Source: Candidatus Poribacteria bacterium (lineage in GTDB: Bacteria > Poribacteria > WGA-4E > WGA-3G). Taken from it: DNA of 64,000 nt. The DNA is taken from assembly GCA_009841255.1 (NCBI GenBank), contig VXMD01000083.1, positions 62,001 to 126,000 on the forward strand, in the 5' to 3' direction. Of the stretch, positions 48,892-58,732 are shown one piece after another. The position numbers were made by a program, and so were the translations under genes. The notes beneath the pieces were generated by a model that did not search any database, had not been told where the DNA came from, and worked only from the letters and a program-made list of their open reading frames with translations. How positions within the stretch are numbered: the stretch's first letter is position 1; each line of letters opens with the position of its first letter.

Positions 48892-50904
48892 ATGCAGAAA
48901 TTGGAGATTGAAAGTCAGACGTATACGAATTCAATAGGGATGCGGTTCGTTAGAATTGAACCGGGGACCTTCACGATGGGTTCAGAGAACGCCGCGCTAT
49001 CGGATGAACTGACAGCAGGGAAAGCATACCTCCGCGACGGGGATTGGGACGAACACCCTGTGCATCAAGTAACCCTCACTACGCCGTTCTACATCGGTAT
49101 TTTTCAGGTGACGAACGCGCAATATGACGCATTTAATCCTGCACACCGTGACTTGAAAAATCTTCAGAACACGGGTTTTTCAAAAGAAGACGATGAAGCG
49201 GTCGTGTTTGTAGACTGGCACGATGCGACCCGTTTCTGCGAATGGCTCTCCGAACAGGAGGGACTCCCCTATCGAGTGCCAACCGAAGCGGAGTGGGAAT
49301 ACGTGTGCCGCGCGGGGACGACAACCCATTTTCATACGGGCGATACACTCCCACCTGAATTCCACAAAAACGTTGGAGAGAGTTGGTACCCGGATGCCGA
49401 GCGGAGTCGTGGGAGAGAAGAGATCTTGCCTCTACACGTTGGGCAGACACCACCGAACGCCTGGGGTGTATACGACATGCACGGGAACGTGGAGGAGTGG
49501 TGCCACGATTGGTATGGGACCTACGCATCCGATCCGCAAGTGGATCCAGTGGGTCGGGAAGAAGGCTTGTATCGCGTTACACGGGGTGGGAGTCACTCGA
49601 CGTTACTCTGTTACTTACGCTCAGCCAATCGGATGGCGGCAGTGCCAGAAGATAAGCACTGGTACATCGGATTCCGTGTCGTCTGTGGTGAGATGCCACA
49701 GACCGCGCCAAGACCGGCACCGAAGGTGGCATTATGGGGACGTGATGTTAAACAGGAAAATAGGCGCACCTCCGCCCCGGAATCCCCCTATTTTGCGGAA
49801 CCGCTCACCTACGTCAAAATTCCAGCAGGCTCAAACGGACCGCTTTTTTCGGCACATAACCACGTCCCGGCGATCGTGGAATGCCCGAACGGTGACATGT
49901 TCGCGGCATGGTATTCATGTGTGACAGAGCGGGGACGCGAATTGACGGTCGCCGCGAGCCGATTGCGCTTTGGTGAAACCGAATGGGACCCAGCTGAACC
50001 TTTCTGGGGTCCGCCGGATAGGAACAATCACGCCACTTCCCTCTGGCGAAACGAGCATGGACGGATTTATCATTTCAATGGACTCTCGGCAGCCGCAACG
50101 TGGGGTCCGTTAGCGTTGGTGCTACGCCATTCCGACGATAACGGTGCGACTTGGTCGAAACCGCGCTTCATCTCACCAGAGCACCGCCTCCGGCACATGC
50201 CGATCGCCTCTGTTTTCCGAAGACAGGACGGCTCTATCCTCCTTGCTTGCGATGCAGTAACCGGTGGAAACGGTGGCACGGCGATATGGCTCAGTGACGA
50301 TGATGGCGACACCTGGTACGATCCCGGTGCGGGACAACCGATTCCTGAATTTGCCGATGGCAAACAGGGCGGATGGATCGCTGGTATCCACGCCGCTGTG
50401 GTTGAACTCACAGATGGCAGGTTGATGGCTTACGGCAGAGGCGACACCATCAACGGACGGATGCCGAAGAGCCTTTCCGCAGATGGTGGTAGGACGTGGC
50501 AGTATAGTGCGAGTCCGTTCCCAGTCGTTTCCGGTGGACAACGGTGCGTGCTGTTACGACTTCAAGAGGGCCCTATTTTTCTTGCGACGTTCACAGGAGA
50601 GCGGAAGACACCGACACCCATACCGATTGTTGATGTCTCTGGCAATGAACGCCTCGTTACCGGACTCTTCGGGGCGTTGTCTTATGACGACGGCGAAACG
50701 TGGGAGTGTATGCGTCTGATTTCAGATGATGGAGAAGATCGAGAGCTTGAGACGATGGATGGACACCCCTTTACGATGGGGTTAAATAGCACCGAACTCG
50801 GGGGTTACCTCGCCGTTTGCCAAGGACAGAATGGAATTATCCATCTGATTAGCAGCCGTCAACACTATCGATTTAATTACGCCTGGTTGAAAAACCCTTT
50901 GTAG
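48892..50904 (+). CDS. FGE/SUMF1-like domain fused to a BNR sialidase-like domain
   Basis: 670 residues. Residues about 10-270 are a formylglycine-generating-enzyme-type domain: FVRIEPGTFTMGSEN, PVHQVTLTTPFYIGIFQVTNAQYD, YRVPTEAEWEYVCRAGT, WGVYDMHGNVEEWCHDWYG, TRGGSHSTLLCYLRSANR and WYIGFRVV. Residues about 295-665 are a six-bladed sialidase-like propeller with Asp boxes SDDNGATW, SDDDGDTW, SADGGRTW and SYDDGETW. There is no signal peptide. Many SUMF1-like proteins are not true FGEs; one Cys (LLCYLR) is near the expected active-site region. Probably acts on glycans, but the combined role is unknown. Confidence 0.85.
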   Translation: MQKLEIESQTYTNSIGMRFVRIEPGTFTMGSENAALSDELTAGKAYLRDGDWDEHPVHQVTLTTPFYIGIFQVTNAQYDAFNPAHRDLKNLQNTGFSKEDDEAVVFVDWHDATRFCEWLSEQEGLPYRVPTEAEWEYVCRAGTTTHFHTGDTLPPEFHKNVGESWYPDAERSRGREEILPLHVGQTPPNAWGVYDMHGNVEEWCHDWYGTYASDPQVDPVGREEGLYRVTRGGSHSTLLCYLRSANRMAAVPEDKHWYIGFRVVCGEMPQTAPRPAPKVALWGRDVKQENRRTSAPESPYFAEPLTYVKIPAGSNGPLFSAHNHVPAIVECPNGDMFAAWYSCVTERGRELTVAASRLRFGETEWDPAEPFWGPPDRNNHATSLWRNEHGRIYHFNGLSAAATWGPLALVLRHSDDNGATWSKPRFISPEHRLRHMPIASVFRRQDGSILLACDAVTGGNGGTAIWLSDDDGDTWYDPGAGQPIPEFADGKQGGWIAGIHAAVVELTDGRLMAYGRGDTINGRMPKSLSADGGRTWQYSASPFPVVSGGQRCVLLRLQEGPIFLATFTGERKTPTPIPIVDVSGNERLVTGLFGALSYDDGETWECMRLISDDGEDRELETMDGHPFTMGLNSTELGGYLAVCQGQNGIIHLISSRQHYRFNYAWLKNPL

Positions 50905-50973
50905 CAGGGTCTCCTGTTAGACTGCACAAATTCCTACCGCTTTAACCTTGCTGGGTTGAGAGTTTTTTAACTA

Positions 50974-51021
50974 CGGGGCCGCGGAGTGTCCTTACCTGTG
51001 GCATCGGCCCCGTTCTTTTTT
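50974..51021. terminator. Rho-independent terminator after the FGE-sialidase gene
   Basis: Stem CGGGGCCG/CGGCCCCG (50974-50981 and 51005-51012), loop of 23 nt, followed by TTCTTTTTT. It also faces the end of the minus-strand sigma remnant. Confidence 0.7.
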
Positions 51022-51029
51022 ATGGCACT

Positions 51030-51558
51030 TCATGAGAGCCAGGGAATGTGTTGATTTTTTAGGTAAGGTGTGAGGTATTCTTGGAGCTGGAGCCGGGCGT
51101 TTCGGAGATGCGTTTTTACCGTGCCTTCAGAGCGGTTCAGACGGTGGGCAATCGCCTTGATGGGTAACTCGTGATGGTAGTATAATACGAACACAAGACG
51201 ACGGGTCTTTGTGAGGCTGTTGAGGGCGTTTTTCAGGTGTTCCCGCAACTCTTGGCGGAGGATGTCTTGACTCGGACACGTGTCTGTGTCTGTCATGCGG
51301 TGTTCGTCAATCAGATGTAGCGGTTCAGCGTCTCGGTGTTTCTGCTTTCGGAAAAAATCGATACAGCCACGAAGAAAAAACCTAAGCACCGCGGAAGCCC
51401 GGGATGCCACGATACGCCTTTAACCACGTCTCTTGCGTCAAGTCTTTGGCGAGTTCGGGGTCTCTGACACATCTCTGGATGTGACGATACAAGCGGTCTT
51501 GGTATTTGCGAACCAGCGGGGTAAAGGCATCGCTGTCGCCCTGCTATGTGCTGTGGAT
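51030..51558 (-). pseudogene. Broken sigma-70 family (ECF) factor
   Basis: Minus-strand translation gives sigma region 2 from about 51543: QGDSDAFTPLVRKYQDRLY, then DPELAKDLTQETWLKAYRGIPGF, in one frame. That frame has TAG stops at 51546-51544 and 51384-51382. After the second stop it reads VFSSWLYR and then loses frame. Region 4 continues in another frame: CIDFFRKQKHRDAE to RLVFVLYYHHELPIKAIAHRLN and EGTVKTHLRNARLQL. The normal IARN-type residues between SWLYR and CIDFF are absent. The string TGTATCGA serves both WLYR and CID codons, so a deletion between short direct repeats is likely. Hence a remnant; the reading starting at 51410 is not a functional sigma factor. Confidence 0.8.
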
Positions 51559-51571
51559 GGGGTGTTTTTCG

Positions 51572-52171
51572 TCAATCTCTTGCAATCAGGTTTCTGTCTC
51601 CGTTTTCAGGTGCGCGGTGTTTCTGTTTTTCAGTCTGCGTCCGTAGACGTGTGAAAAAGAAGGGAAGTCCGCGAAGCAGGCACACGCCGATGGCAATGCT
51701 CGCCAGCACAAGGCTTGCTGTATCCAAAACAGAGTTTGTGAAAACCTGTGCCCCTGCAAGACTGGTAAACGCTAACATTTTCGTCAAACCTGACAGGGCG
51801 CGACTGGGGCGTGAGCGGGTCAGGGCGTATCTCCACCCGCTTTTCGGGTATCCCCAAAACCTTTGTAAACTGTCGGTGATAAAGCCTCGTACCATGACTG
51901 CTATCGGCATCAAGACATTCAGGTGTCCCGACGCTGTGAAGTAGATCCAGAATGTGTTTTCAACGATCCGATCTGCGAGGGTGTCAAGAACTTCGCCTAG
52001 TTTGGAGGTCTCATCGCGTTGACGAGCAACAATGCCGTCGAGGGCATCAAGGATGAATATACCCGCAATTGTGAAAATCACGGCGATGTCAACAGGGCGA
52101 GACCAACCGAACACCGAAATTACGACGAAGGTTAAAAGAAGTCGAGAAAGTGTTATGATGTTCGCAAACAT
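51572..52171 (-). CDS. CDP-alcohol phosphatidyltransferase family protein
   Basis: 199 residues with several TMs. The signature D-x2-D-G-x2-A-R-x8-G-x3-D-x3-D is complete: DALDGIVARQRDETSKLGEVLDTLADR. The N-terminus FANIITLSRLLLTFVVISVF resembles PgsA-like enzymes. It transfers a phosphoalcohol from CDP-alcohol in phospholipid synthesis. Which lipid is made is unclear. It lies between the M48 gene and the sigma remnant on the same strand. Confidence 0.9.
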   Translation of the reverse strand: MFANIITLSRLLLTFVVISVFGWSRPVDIAVIFTIAGIFILDALDGIVARQRDETSKLGEVLDTLADRIVENTFWIYFTASGHLNVLMPIAVMVRGFITDSLQRFWGYPKSGWRYALTRSRPSRALSGLTKMLAFTSLAGAQVFTNSVLDTASLVLASIAIGVCLLRGLPFFFTRLRTQTEKQKHRAPENGDRNLIARD

Positions 52172-52299
52172 GCCTGCTTATTCTCCGTATTCAGGTGCGA
52201 TGTGTTTCATTTTCAGAGAAAACGCTGGTGAGTGGTCTGACATAAAATTTCTCGGAAAACAATACCAAAAACGATCACGGTTCTCTATAAGAAAAGCCT

Positions 52300-54093
52300 C
52301 TACCATCGGACATCCCCCCGCCGTGAAGACAACTTTTCCAGCGCATCGGCGCGTGCCTTAAAATTGGGATGTGTAGATAACATCTCGTTAAATTTATCCA
52401 TATCTTCAGGGGCATCGTTGAGTTGAATGAGTTTACGAAGTGCTTGAAGGAAAACCTCAGGTTCCTGCGTGAGTTCTACTGCGTAAGCGTCGGCTTCAAA
52501 CTCCATCTGTCTCCAAAAACGCATCAACCCAAACTGTGCCAATAGAAAGATAACACCGAAATGAACACCCACAAATAGTAGCCAATACAGCCACGATGGG
52601 ATACCCATGAGAAAACTAAAAAGGAACAAATTCAGGCGCGCCAATAGCAATTGTCCCCCAAAACCCAGCACAATCCATGCGACCTGATTGAGCAGATGCC
52701 GGTGTTTTAGATGTCCTAACTCATGTGCGAAAATCGTTTCGATTTCATCATATCTCAGATGTTCAAGCAAGTAGTCGGTGAGAAAGACCGAACGCCTCTT
52801 TGGGAAAATACCCGCAACCCATGCATTCGCTAACTTCCTGCTTTTCGTCTTAAGTACGACGATATTTCGGCAATCTATTCCTGCTTTGCCTGTGAGTTGC
52901 TGTAAACACAGGCGAAGTTTTTCATCTTCTAAGGGGGTTGCTTTCCATATCCACCCTAAGACCAACGGCATCAGGCAGGCAAAGAGTGCAGTTAATATCG
53001 CATATTGTGCTAAGAGCAGAAGGAGAAAGAAAAAAGACGATAGATTTGGAAAGATTTTCTGTGTGGCTAAAAAACAGATTGGAAGTAGGAGTGCCGGCAT
53101 CCCCAGGACGATCATCCGCAGATTCGTAAGGAAGTTTTCACGAAAACTCCATGTCGTGCCACGCGAGGTTTTTTCGTAGTCGTGGAGAAGGCGAAGTAAA
53201 ATCAGAAAGCAAATCAAAGTCGCGGGAACAATACTTAATAGAATACCGAAAAGTGTACTTTCTGTTGCCGCTGAACATATATGTACACAACCGAAATGAA
53301 TCGTCGCACCTATAGTCACATAGAATTCAAGATAGATAATGATAAATTGGATCGGTTTGAATTTGACTTTGCCGCGATCGTTGATGATCCTACCGCGCCT
53401 CAAGAACAGATACGCTGTTATTCCAGGTAATAATATCGCAAAAATTACGAGAGGGAATTCCTTTAAAAACCAAACTTTAGAAAAAGAACTTTTGGCATTG
53501 AGCGTGGGCAGGGTCAGTTTCTCAGAAAACTGACCTAAATCAACCGTGTACCGAATTCGGTAGTTTAACAGCCCACCGAAAGTTATCGGTCCTGTCCACC
53601 TTTTTTCGGGCGAAAATTGACTTCGCCACTTTTGATGATCCAAATTACTCTTGTCATTCGATACCACACCGGACGTCAAGACATCCTGATAGGCAAAACC
53701 ACGGTTGCCAAAAACATCAATAATTATGCCATTAGCATTCGAAAACTGATCCCGAAGCACCTGAAAGTTCAGTCTAAAGTGGGTATCAAGGCGTTGCTTC
53801 TCCGAAAGGTTGCCGACCTGCCAGGCAACCTTATTACCGTTTTCATACTTGATTTCAAGAGATTTTTCAGAATACGTCCAACCATGTGACTGTGCTAAGG
53901 CTGACAGATCGGCTTGTATCTGTGCCTTGGAGACGTTTGCTGGATATTTTATCCCAATCGCCTCGTTCGGCTGCCAACCGAGAACTCTGAACATCAGATG
54001 AATGGTATTCCCCGTATCGGACGACTCCTGGCTCCCGGAATTGTTACTCAGCAAAAAGAGGATTCCTATACAGAGAAACAAGATTATTTTCAT
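52300..54093 (-). CDS. M48 family membrane metalloprotease with large N-terminal extension
   Basis: 597 residues. Signal or first TM at 1-20, an exported N-terminal region (about 25-200) of unknown fold, then several TMs. The M48 core has FAHELGHLKHRH (HELGH 457-461) and the third zinc ligand in EFEADAYAVEL (531-535). The architecture resembles HtpX/Ste24-like proteases, but the 200-residue extracytoplasmic part is unusual. It follows the Yip1-like and SpoIIM-like genes and could process the small secreted peptide encoded upstream (inference from context). Confidence 0.88.
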   Translation of the reverse strand: MKIILFLCIGILFLLSNNSGSQESSDTGNTIHLMFRVLGWQPNEAIGIKYPANVSKAQIQADLSALAQSHGWTYSEKSLEIKYENGNKVAWQVGNLSEKQRLDTHFRLNFQVLRDQFSNANGIIIDVFGNRGFAYQDVLTSGVVSNDKSNLDHQKWRSQFSPEKRWTGPITFGGLLNYRIRYTVDLGQFSEKLTLPTLNAKSSFSKVWFLKEFPLVIFAILLPGITAYLFLRRGRIINDRGKVKFKPIQFIIIYLEFYVTIGATIHFGCVHICSAATESTLFGILLSIVPATLICFLILLRLLHDYEKTSRGTTWSFRENFLTNLRMIVLGMPALLLPICFLATQKIFPNLSSFFFLLLLLAQYAILTALFACLMPLVLGWIWKATPLEDEKLRLCLQQLTGKAGIDCRNIVVLKTKSRKLANAWVAGIFPKRRSVFLTDYLLEHLRYDEIETIFAHELGHLKHRHLLNQVAWIVLGFGGQLLLARLNLFLFSFLMGIPSWLYWLLFVGVHFGVIFLLAQFGLMRFWRQMEFEADAYAVELTQEPEVFLQALRKLIQLNDAPEDMDKFNEMLSTHPNFKARADALEKLSSRRGDVRW

Positions 54094-54157
54094 ATCGTCC
54101 CTTTCTCATCGCGGATGTGCCCTACGTTTTAGTGCAAGGATTTGAGCTGTTAATGGA

Positions 54158-54787
54158 TTAAAACAAAAAAACAGATTGCAGTGCTTTGCTCAGCAGCCAA
54201 TAAATGACATAAGGGATAACCACACTGCAAAATGCTTTGAGCCACGTGATTTCAAAGAATCCGCGAATCACTATTACAATGATGAGTCCGAAGCATATAT
54301 TGCCGACTGCACCGATAAGTCTCAGCGGAGACAATGTTTCAGTAATTGCGTCTACCATTTCTTGTGAATCCCTTATGTTATATTCAAGCGTTCCGATGGG
54401 AGATGGTAACACAAACAAAATGAACAGAGAGCAAATGAGAGTACCTGCTAATAAAATAAGATGACAGATACCTACGATTTCAAAGAAGTTTCGGAAAATG
54501 CAGTCTGCATCAAAGAAGAGCTCGCACCAGTAGAAGATGACAACGCTCATTAGGAGCCAACTTATCAATCCTCCGACGATCACAGAAAAACTGCCGAGAA
54601 CTGAAATAGCAATCTGAATGTTGCGAGGGATTTCAGAGAACTCAATCTGTGCGTACAGCGTTTGTGTGTTAAAAATGTGAACAATACCATTGAACAGAAC
54701 AATTGTCAACGGAAACCAAAGGGCGGGTGTATAGTTTTTTAGGGAATCTGAAAGTTTTTTATCGAATATCGTGATCCAGTTCTTCAT
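54158..54787 (-). CDS. Yip1-like membrane protein
   Basis: 209 residues with five or six TM segments in the Yip1 pattern: LWFPLTIVLFNGIVHIF, VLGSFSVIVGGLISWLLMSVVIFYW, FFEIVGICHLILLAGTLICSLFILFVL, LIGAVGNICFGLIIVIVIRGFFEI and a last helix near VIPYVIYWLL. The Yip1 family is broad; in bacteria some members sit in bacteriocin or export clusters. It lies 42 nt downstream of the SpoIIM-like gene. Confidence 0.75.
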   Translation of the reverse strand: MKNWITIFDKKLSDSLKNYTPALWFPLTIVLFNGIVHIFNTQTLYAQIEFSEIPRNIQIAISVLGSFSVIVGGLISWLLMSVVIFYWCELFFDADCIFRNFFEIVGICHLILLAGTLICSLFILFVLPSPIGTLEYNIRDSQEMVDAITETLSPLRLIGAVGNICFGLIIVIVIRGFFEITWLKAFCSVVIPYVIYWLLSKALQSVFLF

Positions 54788-54829
54788 ATGTTTATCACTT
54801 GCTTTCGTTAGAGTAAAACACAGATACCC

Positions 54830-55366
54830 TTATCTCAGCGTCCGGAGCATTCTGATGGCATCTGCTTCGAGCAATCCAGCGATAATCGTTAGCACACTCG
54901 AAATGACGTAAACGCTGATAATAAGCACAGACTCCTTGTAAAGAAAACAACGTCGGGGGTTTGTAAAAAGTGAAAACACCTCTGAAAAACCCTGAAGCCC
55001 CATCGCACCGATGCCCCAGAGTGCACACACTTCAAAAAACAGATAAGAAAATCTGTATCTTACCGGCCAAGGAAACTCAAGAATACTGAATCCCTTTAAA
55101 AATAGAATAGCAACAAAACCATTGACGAAGAGCGTAAAAGCCGCTGTCGCCCCTGCGGTAAAAAGCCCGACCAAGGCAATTGTCATCACGAATAAATTGT
55201 TGATAATAATTTGTTGGGCATTAAGCCCTGTTAGCATCGCATTCCATGCCCGCAAACTCTCTTGAGAAATTGTATGTCCAGCGGGTTGGAAGCAAAAGGC
55301 AAACACACCCCCGAGGCACCAAATCCCAATGGCAAGTAAGAGATTTCTTAGAAAATGCCGCATCAA
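54830..55366 (-). CDS. SpoIIM/DUF95-like membrane protein
   Basis: 178 residues with about five TMs. The family block is NAQQIIINNLFVMTIALVGLFTAGATAAFTLFVNGFV, followed by FSYLFFEVCALWGIGAMGLQGFS and a final helix before LLEADAIRMLRTLR. SpoIIM/DUF95 proteins occur as accessory, immunity or export components in circular-bacteriocin loci. Start is TTG 55366 or ATG 55363, with no clear SD. A strong hairpin precedes it. Confidence 0.8.
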   Translation of the reverse strand: MMRHFLRNLLLAIGIWCLGGVFAFCFQPAGHTISQESLRAWNAMLTGLNAQQIIINNLFVMTIALVGLFTAGATAAFTLFVNGFVAILFLKGFSILEFPWPVRYRFSYLFFEVCALWGIGAMGLQGFSEVFSLFTNPRRCFLYKESVLIISVYVISSVLTIIAGLLEADAIRMLRTLR

Positions 55367-55378
55367 ATTTTATCTGGG

Positions 55379-55414
55379 TGCTTTGCATGAGCGTCTCTGA
55401 TCCCATGCAAAGCA
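55379..55414. promoter_or_regulatory. Stem-loop between the small peptide gene and the SpoIIM-like gene
   Basis: Perfect 11-bp arms TGCTTTGCATG (55379-55389) and CATGCAAAGCA (55404-55414), 14-nt loop, no T-tract. In bacteriocin loci such stem-loops behind the precursor gene limit read-through or stabilise the precursor mRNA. The same role is plausible here. Confidence 0.7.
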
Positions 55415-55488
55415 GTCTAGTCGGTGAATGACAACCGTTCAGGTCCTTAGATCTTGCCACTCACCTACAAAGCTAGTAAAAACGGGCA

Positions 55489-55740
55489 TTACGCCACGAC
55501 CCCGAGTCCAACTCCGAGAGCAACTCCCCCGGTGAGTCCGGCCGCTACGCCTATGCCTACCCATACAGCACCTGACCACATACCCCCTGCTGCTGCAGCA
55601 ACGCCAGCGGACGTACTCCCACATACGCTTGCAGCAATTCCAACTGCTCCCCATAGATTGCCCAGAAGGGGCGCACTACCGAGCAATGCAGCAGTTAATA
55701 GGCATGCGATAAGAAGGATTGACATTGATTTTTTACGCAT
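55489..55740 (-). CDS. Small secreted Gly/Ala-rich hydrophobic peptide, bacteriocin-precursor-like
   Basis: 83 residues from the ATG at 55740, which has AAAGGAGG 7 nt upstream; the longer frame to 55794 has no such site. Residues 1-24 (RKKSMSILLIACLLTAALLGSA) form a signal peptide. The predicted mature part of about 59 residues is Gly, Ala, Val and Leu rich with a few Trp and one Cys: LWGAVGIAASVC, GGMWSGAVWVGIGVAAGLTGG. GxxxG-like spacing suggests membrane-active helices. Length and composition recall circular or class II bacteriocins. No homologue is recognised. Confidence 0.72.
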   Translation of the reverse strand: MRKKSMSILLIACLLTAALLGSAPLLGNLWGAVGIAASVCGSTSAGVAAAAGGMWSGAVWVGIGVAAGLTGGVALGVGLGVVA

Positions 55741-55790
55741 GGTTTTTCCTCCTTTCTGCTCCGGGTGAACTGTTTCCCAGAGCCTATTTA

Positions 55791-55810
55791 TCATTGGCTA
55801 TTGCCAATGA
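55791..55810. promoter_or_regulatory. Perfect hairpin in the leader of the small peptide gene
   Basis: 8-bp arms TCATTGGC and GCCAATGA, 4-nt loop. A second stem CTTGAA/TTCAAG (55825-55830 and 55840-55845) overlaps the stop of the upstream fusion gene. Possibly RNA processing or attenuation. Confidence 0.55.
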
Positions 55811-55836
55811 CATCTTTTAGATGACTTGAATCCGTT

Positions 55837-57525
55837 TTATTCAAGACGGAAGATATGGTGATATTCGTCTTCGTAAACGATGTCAGTTTGATTCTCTTGC
55901 AACAACTGTTTTGTGAGGGCATACCCCGGTTCTTCAGAATCTCTTGTACACAAGACATAGTTGGATCGAAAAACATCCTTTATTTTCTGTGATGGGTTTT
56001 CAGACTGCCCAGAAACAACTGATACCCAGAGATCCCACACATCGTTATCATACGCATAACAGTAAACAGGATCCAAGCCAAACAAGTAGTAATTTTCGGT
56101 GTTAAAATAAAATAAAACTGGGAAATCCGACCAATTCGATGTAAAAATGATAGCTTTTTCGGGTGTATTGACTTTTAACCAATGTGCGGATCCTTCTAAT
56201 TTTAGGGGAAAGCGTAGCGGAATGAGAAGCATCGCTAAAACATACATGACGAGCGAAAAACTCAGCAAACCAACGTATCCAATCTTAAGACCCGTTTTCA
56301 AGACGCTCGATTTTAATGGACTTATCGCCGTTATACCCAACGCAACAGACAGGGCTGTAAAAGGCATCCAATATTCGACAAATCTCATTGAGACAATTGT
56401 CATCACCAGAAAAATGGAGGCAAGAATAAAAATAAAGACGGAAATACTACTTAAATTCCTGCGATTTAAAATCAGAAACGTCATTGCTATACCCCAAAGA
56501 AAAAGGGTAATTCCGTTTACACCTATAAAAGTCGATATGGGTTGTGATTTAACCTCCCCTACAAACCAGAATTCTTGATTATTTCCCCAGTTAAAAACGG
56601 GCAATAGTGCGTTTTGCACGTACCACGTCTTTAAATTATTTGGAAACTGTGGATGAATAACCAATCCGAATGTGATTCCAACAAGTGTCAGTAAGAGGAA
56701 ACTCATTTTCAATTCCCGCTGATGTATCCATAAGATCGCCACGTAGATCAGAGTAATGAATACAAGGAAATGCGCAGCTGTGTAGGCAAGTGGATACAAT
56801 ACTGAAATGAGCAAGAGTTTCCACAGTCTTCGGTTCCACAAACTTTCGACAAACAGGAGAATGAGTAGCACCGATAGCACATGAGGACGAATCATACACA
56901 TTCTTTGCAGAAAATTTGAGTTGACTCCGAAAGCAATCAGTGTCCAAATAAGTGCATGGCGAATCTGAAACTGATTGAGTAGTCTGTAAAAAAGGCAAAA
57001 AAGAACGCCTCCTAAAACCGAAATCGCGACTTTTCCAGCGACCATCAGATCGGGAAAAACACGGAGAAAAGGCATCAGATAAACATGGAATAGAAATTCT
57101 TTGTCGGCGAATTTATCCTTCCAGATGCTCACTTGTGTCCACGGAAAATCTTTTAAGATCCCGTGCTGCATCATAAGTTCGCTCACCTTGACGTGATAGT
57201 ATGCGTCAATCCCTACAAACCCAGGTGCACAGAGTTGGATGAGAAAAATCAGGAGACTAAAGAGAATGAAAACATATCCTTTTTTCTTGTAGAACCACGA
57301 CCGAAAATTTCTCGGAGGCTGACCGCTTTTTAGCGTTTTCAGTGCCTCAAAGAATGTTTCTTGAACCAGATCTTGGGCATCTTCATTGTTTCTAATTTTT
57401 TTCTTGAAAAACCTATAAAGAGCCCCCCAGTGTCGCTGACAGAGAACGTTTCCTGCTTTTTCATCGCCTTTCTGGTAACATCTCACGAGATCGACATCAC
57501 TATATTCTTCATAATGGGTCAGCAT
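55837..57525 (-). CDS. Fusion of sigma-70 region 2 with a polytopic GT-C-like membrane protein
   Basis: 562 residues. Residues 8-75 match ECF sigma region 2: SDVDLVRCYQKGDEKAGNVL, LYRFFKKKIRNNEDAQDLVQETFFEALKTL and FRSWFYK. At the point where sigma factors continue with IARN-type sequence, the protein switches to KKGYVFILFSLLIFLIQL and about eleven TMs. GIDAYYHVKVSELM (D-x-Y-Y-H) and DKFADKEFLFHVYL resemble GT-C glycosyl or oligosaccharyl transferases. Region 4 is absent. No frame break is visible at the junction. It is the first gene of the minus-strand cluster. Confidence 0.8.
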   Translation of the reverse strand: MLTHYEEYSDVDLVRCYQKGDEKAGNVLCQRHWGALYRFFKKKIRNNEDAQDLVQETFFEALKTLKSGQPPRNFRSWFYKKKGYVFILFSLLIFLIQLCAPGFVGIDAYYHVKVSELMMQHGILKDFPWTQVSIWKDKFADKEFLFHVYLMPFLRVFPDLMVAGKVAISVLGGVLFCLFYRLLNQFQIRHALIWTLIAFGVNSNFLQRMCMIRPHVLSVLLILLFVESLWNRRLWKLLLISVLYPLAYTAAHFLVFITLIYVAILWIHQRELKMSFLLLTLVGITFGLVIHPQFPNNLKTWYVQNALLPVFNWGNNQEFWFVGEVKSQPISTFIGVNGITLFLWGIAMTFLILNRRNLSSISVFIFILASIFLVMTIVSMRFVEYWMPFTALSVALGITAISPLKSSVLKTGLKIGYVGLLSFSLVMYVLAMLLIPLRFPLKLEGSAHWLKVNTPEKAIIFTSNWSDFPVLFYFNTENYYLFGLDPVYCYAYDNDVWDLWVSVVSGQSENPSQKIKDVFRSNYVLCTRDSEEPGYALTKQLLQENQTDIVYEDEYHHIFRLE

Positions 57526-57608
57526 TCAGAGATATCGCGTCCTTCTCCGTTATTAAGATTCAGTGTGAACATTGGGAAACAGGATACGAAAAATGGTCCG
57601 ATTGCCCA

Positions 57609-57617
57609 ATTATATCA
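57609..57617 (-). promoter_or_regulatory. Extended -10 promoter upstream of the sigma/GT-C fusion gene
   Basis: Minus strand TGATATAAT, that is TGn directly before TATAAT (57614-57609). The -35 is poor. It lies about 85 nt before the ATG at 57525. Confidence 0.5.
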
Positions 57618-57755
57618 TGCTGCTGGCATTCGCATAAAGAAAAAGCCGCAGCGGTGTTTTGTGTCTCTATTAATTATAAGTGTAAAAATTGAGCAAAAAG
57701 GTTACAAAATAATGATCTGACGCATTTTTTCAAGGACAAATTCAACTGAATTTGG

Positions 57756-57761
57756 TATAAT
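57756..57761 (+). promoter_or_regulatory. Extended -10 promoter for the PhyH gene at 57842
   Basis: TGGTATAAT with TATAAT at 57756-57761 and TG two bases before; no clear -35. The 57526-57841 gap otherwise holds the divergent promoter and the palindrome at 57784. Confidence 0.5.
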
Positions 57762-57783
57762 GACATAAAACCGGATTGAAACC

Positions 57784-57810
57784 GTAGAGGCTGGGGAACC
57801 CAGCCCCTAC
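57784..57810. repeat. 27-bp palindromic repeat, copy 3
   Basis: Arms GTAGAGGCTGGG and CCCAGCCCCTAC around a 3-nt centre; one mismatch. It is intergenic, in the leader of the PhyH gene. Confidence 0.82.
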
Positions 57811-57841
57811 AGAAAACAGATCAGAGGCCCCTAATTAAAAA

Positions 57842-58732
57842 ATGAAACTCCCTTTTTTGCATCAGGAAGTAGACGTCAGTACCGATTTGCGAGAAAGTAA
57901 CGACATCCTTGATAATCCCGAAGCCTTGCAAGAACGGATGGCAACGGACGGGTATCTCCTGATTCGCGAATTACACGACAAGGACGCGATCCTTACGGCG
58001 CGTCGACAGATTCTGGAGAAACTCGCCGACAAAGGGATGCTCGCGCCAGATACACCGCTGATGGACGGGATCTTCAACCCCGATTATCCCGAACCGACAT
58101 CAACCGGCTCAATGGGCAATAAGGCACTCACGCAGATGCCTGCCTTCACAGCGGTCGTCGAGGGTGAACCCATCATGAACTTTTTCAAGCAATTCCTCGG
58201 TGGCGATGCCCGGACGTTCGATTTCAAATGGCTTCGCACGGCAGGACCTGGATCAGGCTCCCCGATACATTACGATATCGTCTTTATGGGCAGAGGCACG
58301 CAACATCTCTACTCCTGTTGGACACCCTTTGGCGACGTATCGTTGGACATGGGTCCAATCGTATTCTGTCTCGGTTCCAACCGATTTGAAGAGGTCCGCG
58401 CCACTTACGGACAGTCAGACGTGGATCGAGATATGATTGAGGGACACTTCAGCGATAAACCGCTTGAGATCGTTGAGAAATTCGGGGGACACTGGGCAAC
58501 GACCTCGTTCTCAGCAGGTGACGTGATTATTTTCAGCATGTTTCTGATGCATGCTTCGCTCGTGAACACCTCCGATAAAATTCGGATAACAGCAGATACC
58601 CGCTACCAACTTGCCGCTGAACCCATCGATGAACGCTGGGTTGGTGAAAAACCGAAAGGGCATTACGCATGGAAGCAACAGGGCGCGAAGATCGAAACCT
58701 TGGAAAAATCACGGGAGAGATGGGGTGTTTAG
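57842..58732 (+). CDS. Phytanoyl-CoA dioxygenase (PhyH) family protein
   Basis: 296 residues. The Fe(II) ligands are H-x-D in SPIHYDIVFMG and the distal His in SMFLMHASLVNTSD, with IRITADTRYQ as the likely 2-oxoglutarate anchor. RQDLD-like chain length and the middle block WTPFGDVSLDMGPIVFCLGS match PhyH proteins. It is distinct from the one at 3327. Substrate unknown. The start is in AATTAAAAAATG. Confidence 0.87.
   Translation: MKLPFLHQEVDVSTDLRESNDILDNPEALQERMATDGYLLIRELHDKDAILTARRQILEKLADKGMLAPDTPLMDGIFNPDYPEPTSTGSMGNKALTQMPAFTAVVEGEPIMNFFKQFLGGDARTFDFKWLRTAGPGSGSPIHYDIVFMGRGTQHLYSCWTPFGDVSLDMGPIVFCLGSNRFEEVRATYGQSDVDRDMIEGHFSDKPLEIVEKFGGHWATTSFSAGDVIIFSMFLMHASLVNTSDKIRITADTRYQLAAEPIDERWVGEKPKGHYAWKQQGAKIETLEKSRERWGV

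Follow-up and report, generated by a model that had tools for sequence, protein, structure and literature searches.

An open reading frame of 562 codons from Candidatus Poribacteria (55837-57525, minus strand) runs uninterrupted from ATG to stop, as first described, and joins the beginning of an ECF sigma factor gene to a GT-C-like membrane protein. It lies in a window of 64,000 nucleotides, the whole stretch of DNA analysed here (G000:C83:62001-126000), from a source genome of 5.7 Mb in 87 contigs; coordinates are those of the window, and (-) marks its minus strand. The initial annotation had left two readings side by side, a membrane-tethered sigma region 2 acting as a sensor, or a deletion product with its frame kept open. 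The second is probably correct: a deletion would have broken a sigma gene and given its start to the GT-C-like gene. We favor this reading because the fusion occurs only once, the relatives of its sigma half are full-length, a relative of its GT-C-like half (genome G019) carries no sigma sequence, the DNA junction is sharp, a neighboring sigma gene has decayed, and similar deletions are found in related genomes.

Residues 1-80 (57286..57525 (-)), from the ATG to the middle of the last sigma2 helix, are sigma-derived by Pfam, by protein identity and by DNA alignment. The only Pfam match of the ORF is Sigma70_r2, at residues 30-79 (E=7.3e-8), and the top PDB sequence matches of this part are E. 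coli sigma-E region 2 constructs. The match covers profile positions 3-54 of 71, whereas in full-length relatives Pfam follows it to position 69. What had been called a clear ECF sigma region 2 is therefore a genuine ECF N-terminus but an incomplete domain, lacking most of the last sigma2 helix (the region 2.4 side). The linker between sigma2 and sigma4, and sigma4 itself, are also missing from the ORF; the reported absence of region 4 agrees with the Pfam scan, and tblastn over the rest of the window with the lost sigma half gave no convincing homologue (best E 0.12). Five congeners (G034, G023, G004, G009, G080) have sigma genes with region 4 (Pfam-scanned for two of them) to which the sigma half is 57-70% identical.

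Work on a solved ECF holoenzyme showed that the -35 element is read by sigma4 and that transcription is lost when the linker is removed (PMC6411747). Because the end of sigma2, the linker and sigma4 are all missing here, the remnant should not function as a sigma factor. In the remnant, the acidic segment NEDAQDLVQ is retained, as are all 21 of the 21 columns invariant among relatives; with G023 as outgroup, the sigma half has 4 unique changes where G034 has 8, i.e. no faster change. This unaccelerated, column-conserving pattern fits either a recent event or selection; dN/dS says little for this part, whose nearest relatives are distant and whose 78 codons are few. Retention of the acidic segment and of every invariant column is also what a functional membrane-tethered sigma2 might show, if the remnant served in a sensor by binding RNA polymerase or an anti-sigma factor, and the KKK preceding the first transmembrane segment leads one to expect a cytoplasmic N-terminus. 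The proposal is nevertheless highly improbable, given a region 2 that stops at profile position 54, the missing linker and sigma4, the effect of linker loss in the solved system, and a fusion conserved in no other genome of the 84 Poribacteria. Its most specific form, in which residues 1-80 would be a sigma2-only tether holding RNA polymerase or an anti-sigma factor at the membrane beside a glycosyltransferase, seems to us extremely improbable. We know of no precedent for a sigma2-only membrane-tethered binder of RNA polymerase; if the protein were a sensor, it would represent a new regulatory design.

The region ahead of the ORF points to the origin of its start. The conserved motif GTAACCTTTTTNNNNAATTTTTACACTTA is found about 180 bp before the ATG (57677..57705 (-)) as an exact copy with 0 mismatches, once in the window, where none is expected by chance. 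Across the genus it is present in 7 of 38 genomes, at eight places, against 0 for the reversed control. Six of the eight places, the window's included, sit immediately ahead of a sigma gene from the family of the fused gene, and the other two (G006 and G021) just precede sigma matches. A second copy closer to the start codon (57560..57588 (-)) is degenerate, with 9 mismatches; G034 has two good copies at the places corresponding to these two. The motif is a probable promoter of this sigma family, and since it is retained upstream of the fusion, the fusion starts where such a sigma gene starts. Its layout upstream of this Poribacteria ECF sigma family is GTAACCTTTTT-N4-AATTTTTACACTTA (57677-57705 in the window; L029-L036), and the operons behind it encode small peptides, often rich in Cys or hydrophobic, with GT-C-type genes in some cases. 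The motif may be the sigma's own promoter.

The remainder of the ORF is a GT-C-like multi-pass membrane domain (55837..57285 (-)), recognized by hydropathy and by its relatives in genomes G019 and G067. As had been described, it begins directly after FRSWFYK: hydropathy places TM1 at residues 85-103 (57217-57273 (-)), a D-A-Y-Y-H motif follows from D107 (57193-57207 (-)), and there are at least eight TM segments in all. GT-C enzymes of the STT3/AglB type have an Asp motif placed in the same way after TM1, so that topology and the D-x-Y-Y-H motif speak for the description as GT-C-like; searches of Pfam, NCBIfam and PDB sequences with the membrane part gave no match. The label, as used here, rests on those two features, and any enzyme activity is presumptive. 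An STT3-like membrane protein is encoded in two sigma-headed operons of other Poribacteria (G004 and G001, with a Pfam STT3 match for the G004 protein only), and hhalign of the GT-C-like alignment against two STT3-like Poribacteria proteins from sigma-headed operons was null, with very shallow alignments. An AlphaFold model of the fusion, built with one relative, was unusable (pLDDT 38.8). An independent start for the membrane part was considered and rejected, as codons 14 to 114 contain no in-frame ATG, GTG or TTG. TM1 and the D-x-Y-Y-H motif can therefore only be made from the sigma start codon.

The boundary between the two halves is sharp at the DNA level. When six sigma genes of four other species are aligned with the window, the similarity ends abruptly after CTACAAGA, at about 57285, and this alignment places the A-rich junction GGTTCTACAAGAAAAAA at 57280..57296 (-). 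At the aligned position, the GT-C-like gene of G019 reads GAACAAAAAAACT. An A-rich microhomology at the junction is likely from this comparison, although the parent sequence is missing.

The same fusion, which the initial annotation proposed to look for in related genomes, occurs in none of the other 83 Poribacteria genomes. Relatives of the GT-C-like part are found in 2 of the 84 besides the window, both partial and both at contig ends. The one in G019 is 66% identical over the 5' part of the gene and has D-P-Y-Y-H as its motif; its match starts at the junction, the preceding 234 bases are free of sigma sequence, and its frame is truncated, stopping at a point that corresponds to residue 340. 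Upstream of this gene, near the contig end, there is a tract of about 22 C (L028:40-65, G019:C77). The relative in G067 is 62% identical over the 3' part, on a contig that begins within the gene. A search of genome contigs for further relatives returned only the G019 record, and plasmids and viral contigs yielded none. No genome with separate sigma and GT-C-like genes was found among the 84, so the parent arrangement, in which a GT-C-like gene would stand separately behind the sigma gene, is one that we infer.

A fusion seen in one assembled genome only could also be a chimera, with metagenome assembly joining sigma and GT-C-like genes that are not adjacent in the cell. The A-rich tract at the junction would suit such an accident, and the position of both GT-C relatives at contig ends suggests a region that is hard to assemble. 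The two halves, however, share strand and frame, with a sigma promoter and start ahead of them and an operon shared with G067 behind, and the fusion sits on a contig of 242 kb. A GT-C-type gene is moreover found downstream in other operons of the same sigma clade. On balance an assembly chimera is unlikely.

The fused gene belongs to an insert of about 6.9 kb (50905..57818, ends approximate) placed between two genes that are adjacent in congeners. The orthologues of these two genes, 48892-50904 and the PhyH gene at 57842-58732, are neighbors in seven congeners, where the site is empty; separate sigma and GT-C genes, which had been suggested as something to seek at this very place, are not there, nor is a split ancestral state. 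GC content is 0.44 in the insert and 0.49-0.50 in the flanks. The insert ends, checked for repeats, show no clear target duplication or terminal inverted repeats. Downstream of the fusion come a gene for a small hydrophobic, glycine-rich peptide, starting after aggagg (55489..55740 (-); a similar gene occupies the same place in G067), a membrane protein with no Pfam match (54830..55366 (-); 53% identical in G067, in shared order), a Yip1-domain membrane protein (54158..54787 (-); PF04893) and an M48 peptidase (52300..54093 (-); PF01435) that also has a relative in G067. Gene order downstream in G067 thus matches that of the window: small peptide, membrane protein, Yip1/M48. We take this common operon (52300-55740) to resemble a bacteriocin-type locus. 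Several relatives of the fused sigma gene likewise head operons with small peptide genes. Together with a pgsA-like gene, the insert also holds a second sigma gene (51051..51585 (-)), which tblastn with intact relatives from G023 and G001 identifies as a pseudogene, interrupted by two in-frame TAG codons and also by a frameshift. Because of this pseudogene, we read the insert as a locus that is decaying.

Decay might extend to the fusion itself, leaving it a pseudogene in which neither the sigma nor the GT-C-like part is used. Along with the second sigma gene, the degenerate proximal copy of the motif, the truncated GT-C-like copy in G019 and a source genome lacking a close intact copy of the fused sigma to drive the promoter would all agree with this. 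The reading frames of the GT-C-like part, Yip1 and M48 are unbroken, however, and dN/dS of the GT-C part against its relatives is about 0.13-0.17, a measure of long-term constraint and not of constraint since the fusion. That the ORF is nothing but a pseudogene is quite improbable.

The preferred reading, a fusion born of deletion, would run as follows. A cassette consisting of a sigma-headed operon would have inserted between two conserved genes. A deletion would then have removed the 3' part of the ECF sigma gene together with the 5' end of the GT-C-like gene downstream of it and any DNA that separated the two, with the cut at the A-rich, possibly microhomologous junction and the frame kept by chance. 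The GT-C-like protein, if expressed, would now be translated from the sigma start codon and would carry about 80 cytoplasmic, sigma-derived residues presumably unable to direct transcription. Comparable events can be seen in related genomes. For example, in G067:C249 (L043:1939-3030) the first 30-35 or so residues of Yip1 are joined in frame to M48 from about residue 259, whereas in the window Yip1 and M48 are separate genes. In G001:C44 (L036:8523-8800), a sigma gene from the clade of the fused one has lost internal sequence, out of frame, between region 2 and the end of region 4. As a side observation, another sigma gene of the source genome (G000:C67, L003:1489-2123) is spread over two overlapping frames, by frameshift or by sequence error.

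As found, the ORF would appear to be a natural example of a fusion gene arising from the decay of an inserted sigma-headed operon. It also suggests a rule for similar cases: where an odd pairing of domains occurs in a single assembled genome, the parent genes should be found before a function is proposed. The motif that came to light as a by-product, tied as it is to sigma-headed operons with small peptide and GT-C-type genes, will probably prove more useful than the fusion.

Among known systems, the closest parallel is with fusion genes born of deletion; new ORFs have been described that arise when a deletion joins gene fragments (Kaul et al. 2026 preprint, PMC12803068). As in those genes, the N-terminal part is the start of one ORF and the C-terminal part the end of another, at a locus with other signs of decay; unlike in those genes, the split ancestral arrangement was not found, in a species that is not deeply sampled. 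The ECF sigma genes of G034, G023, G004 and G009 share with the fusion the start, the upstream motif and their identity over residues 1-78, but have a complete region 2, linker and region 4. With GT-C glycosyltransferases of the STT3/AglB type, the fusion shares its many TM segments and a D-x-Y-Y-H motif in the first loop after TM1; it differs from them in matching nothing in Pfam, NCBIfam or PDB sequences and in the null hhalign result. The source genome encodes many long sigma proteins (about 450-1000 aa) in which regions 2 and 4 precede a TM segment (L086-L094). Pfam scans of four, three about 1000 aa long and one of 445 aa, show region 2 to position 69 together with region 4 in all of them and beta-propeller-like repeat matches in three. 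Further ones inspected by eye have a region-4-like stretch. Finally, ECF48, ECF52, ECF53 and IutY resemble the fusion in that sigma sequence is followed by transmembrane segments in one protein. In these membrane-extended groups the extension comes in addition to the sigma domains: the sigma is whole, and the extension is an anti-sigma or sensor module with one or two helices (PMC8999054). In the fusion, the sigma sequence breaks off within region 2 and gives way to an enzyme-like domain with many helices, and by this domain content it does not belong with the membrane-anchored ECF sigma factors.
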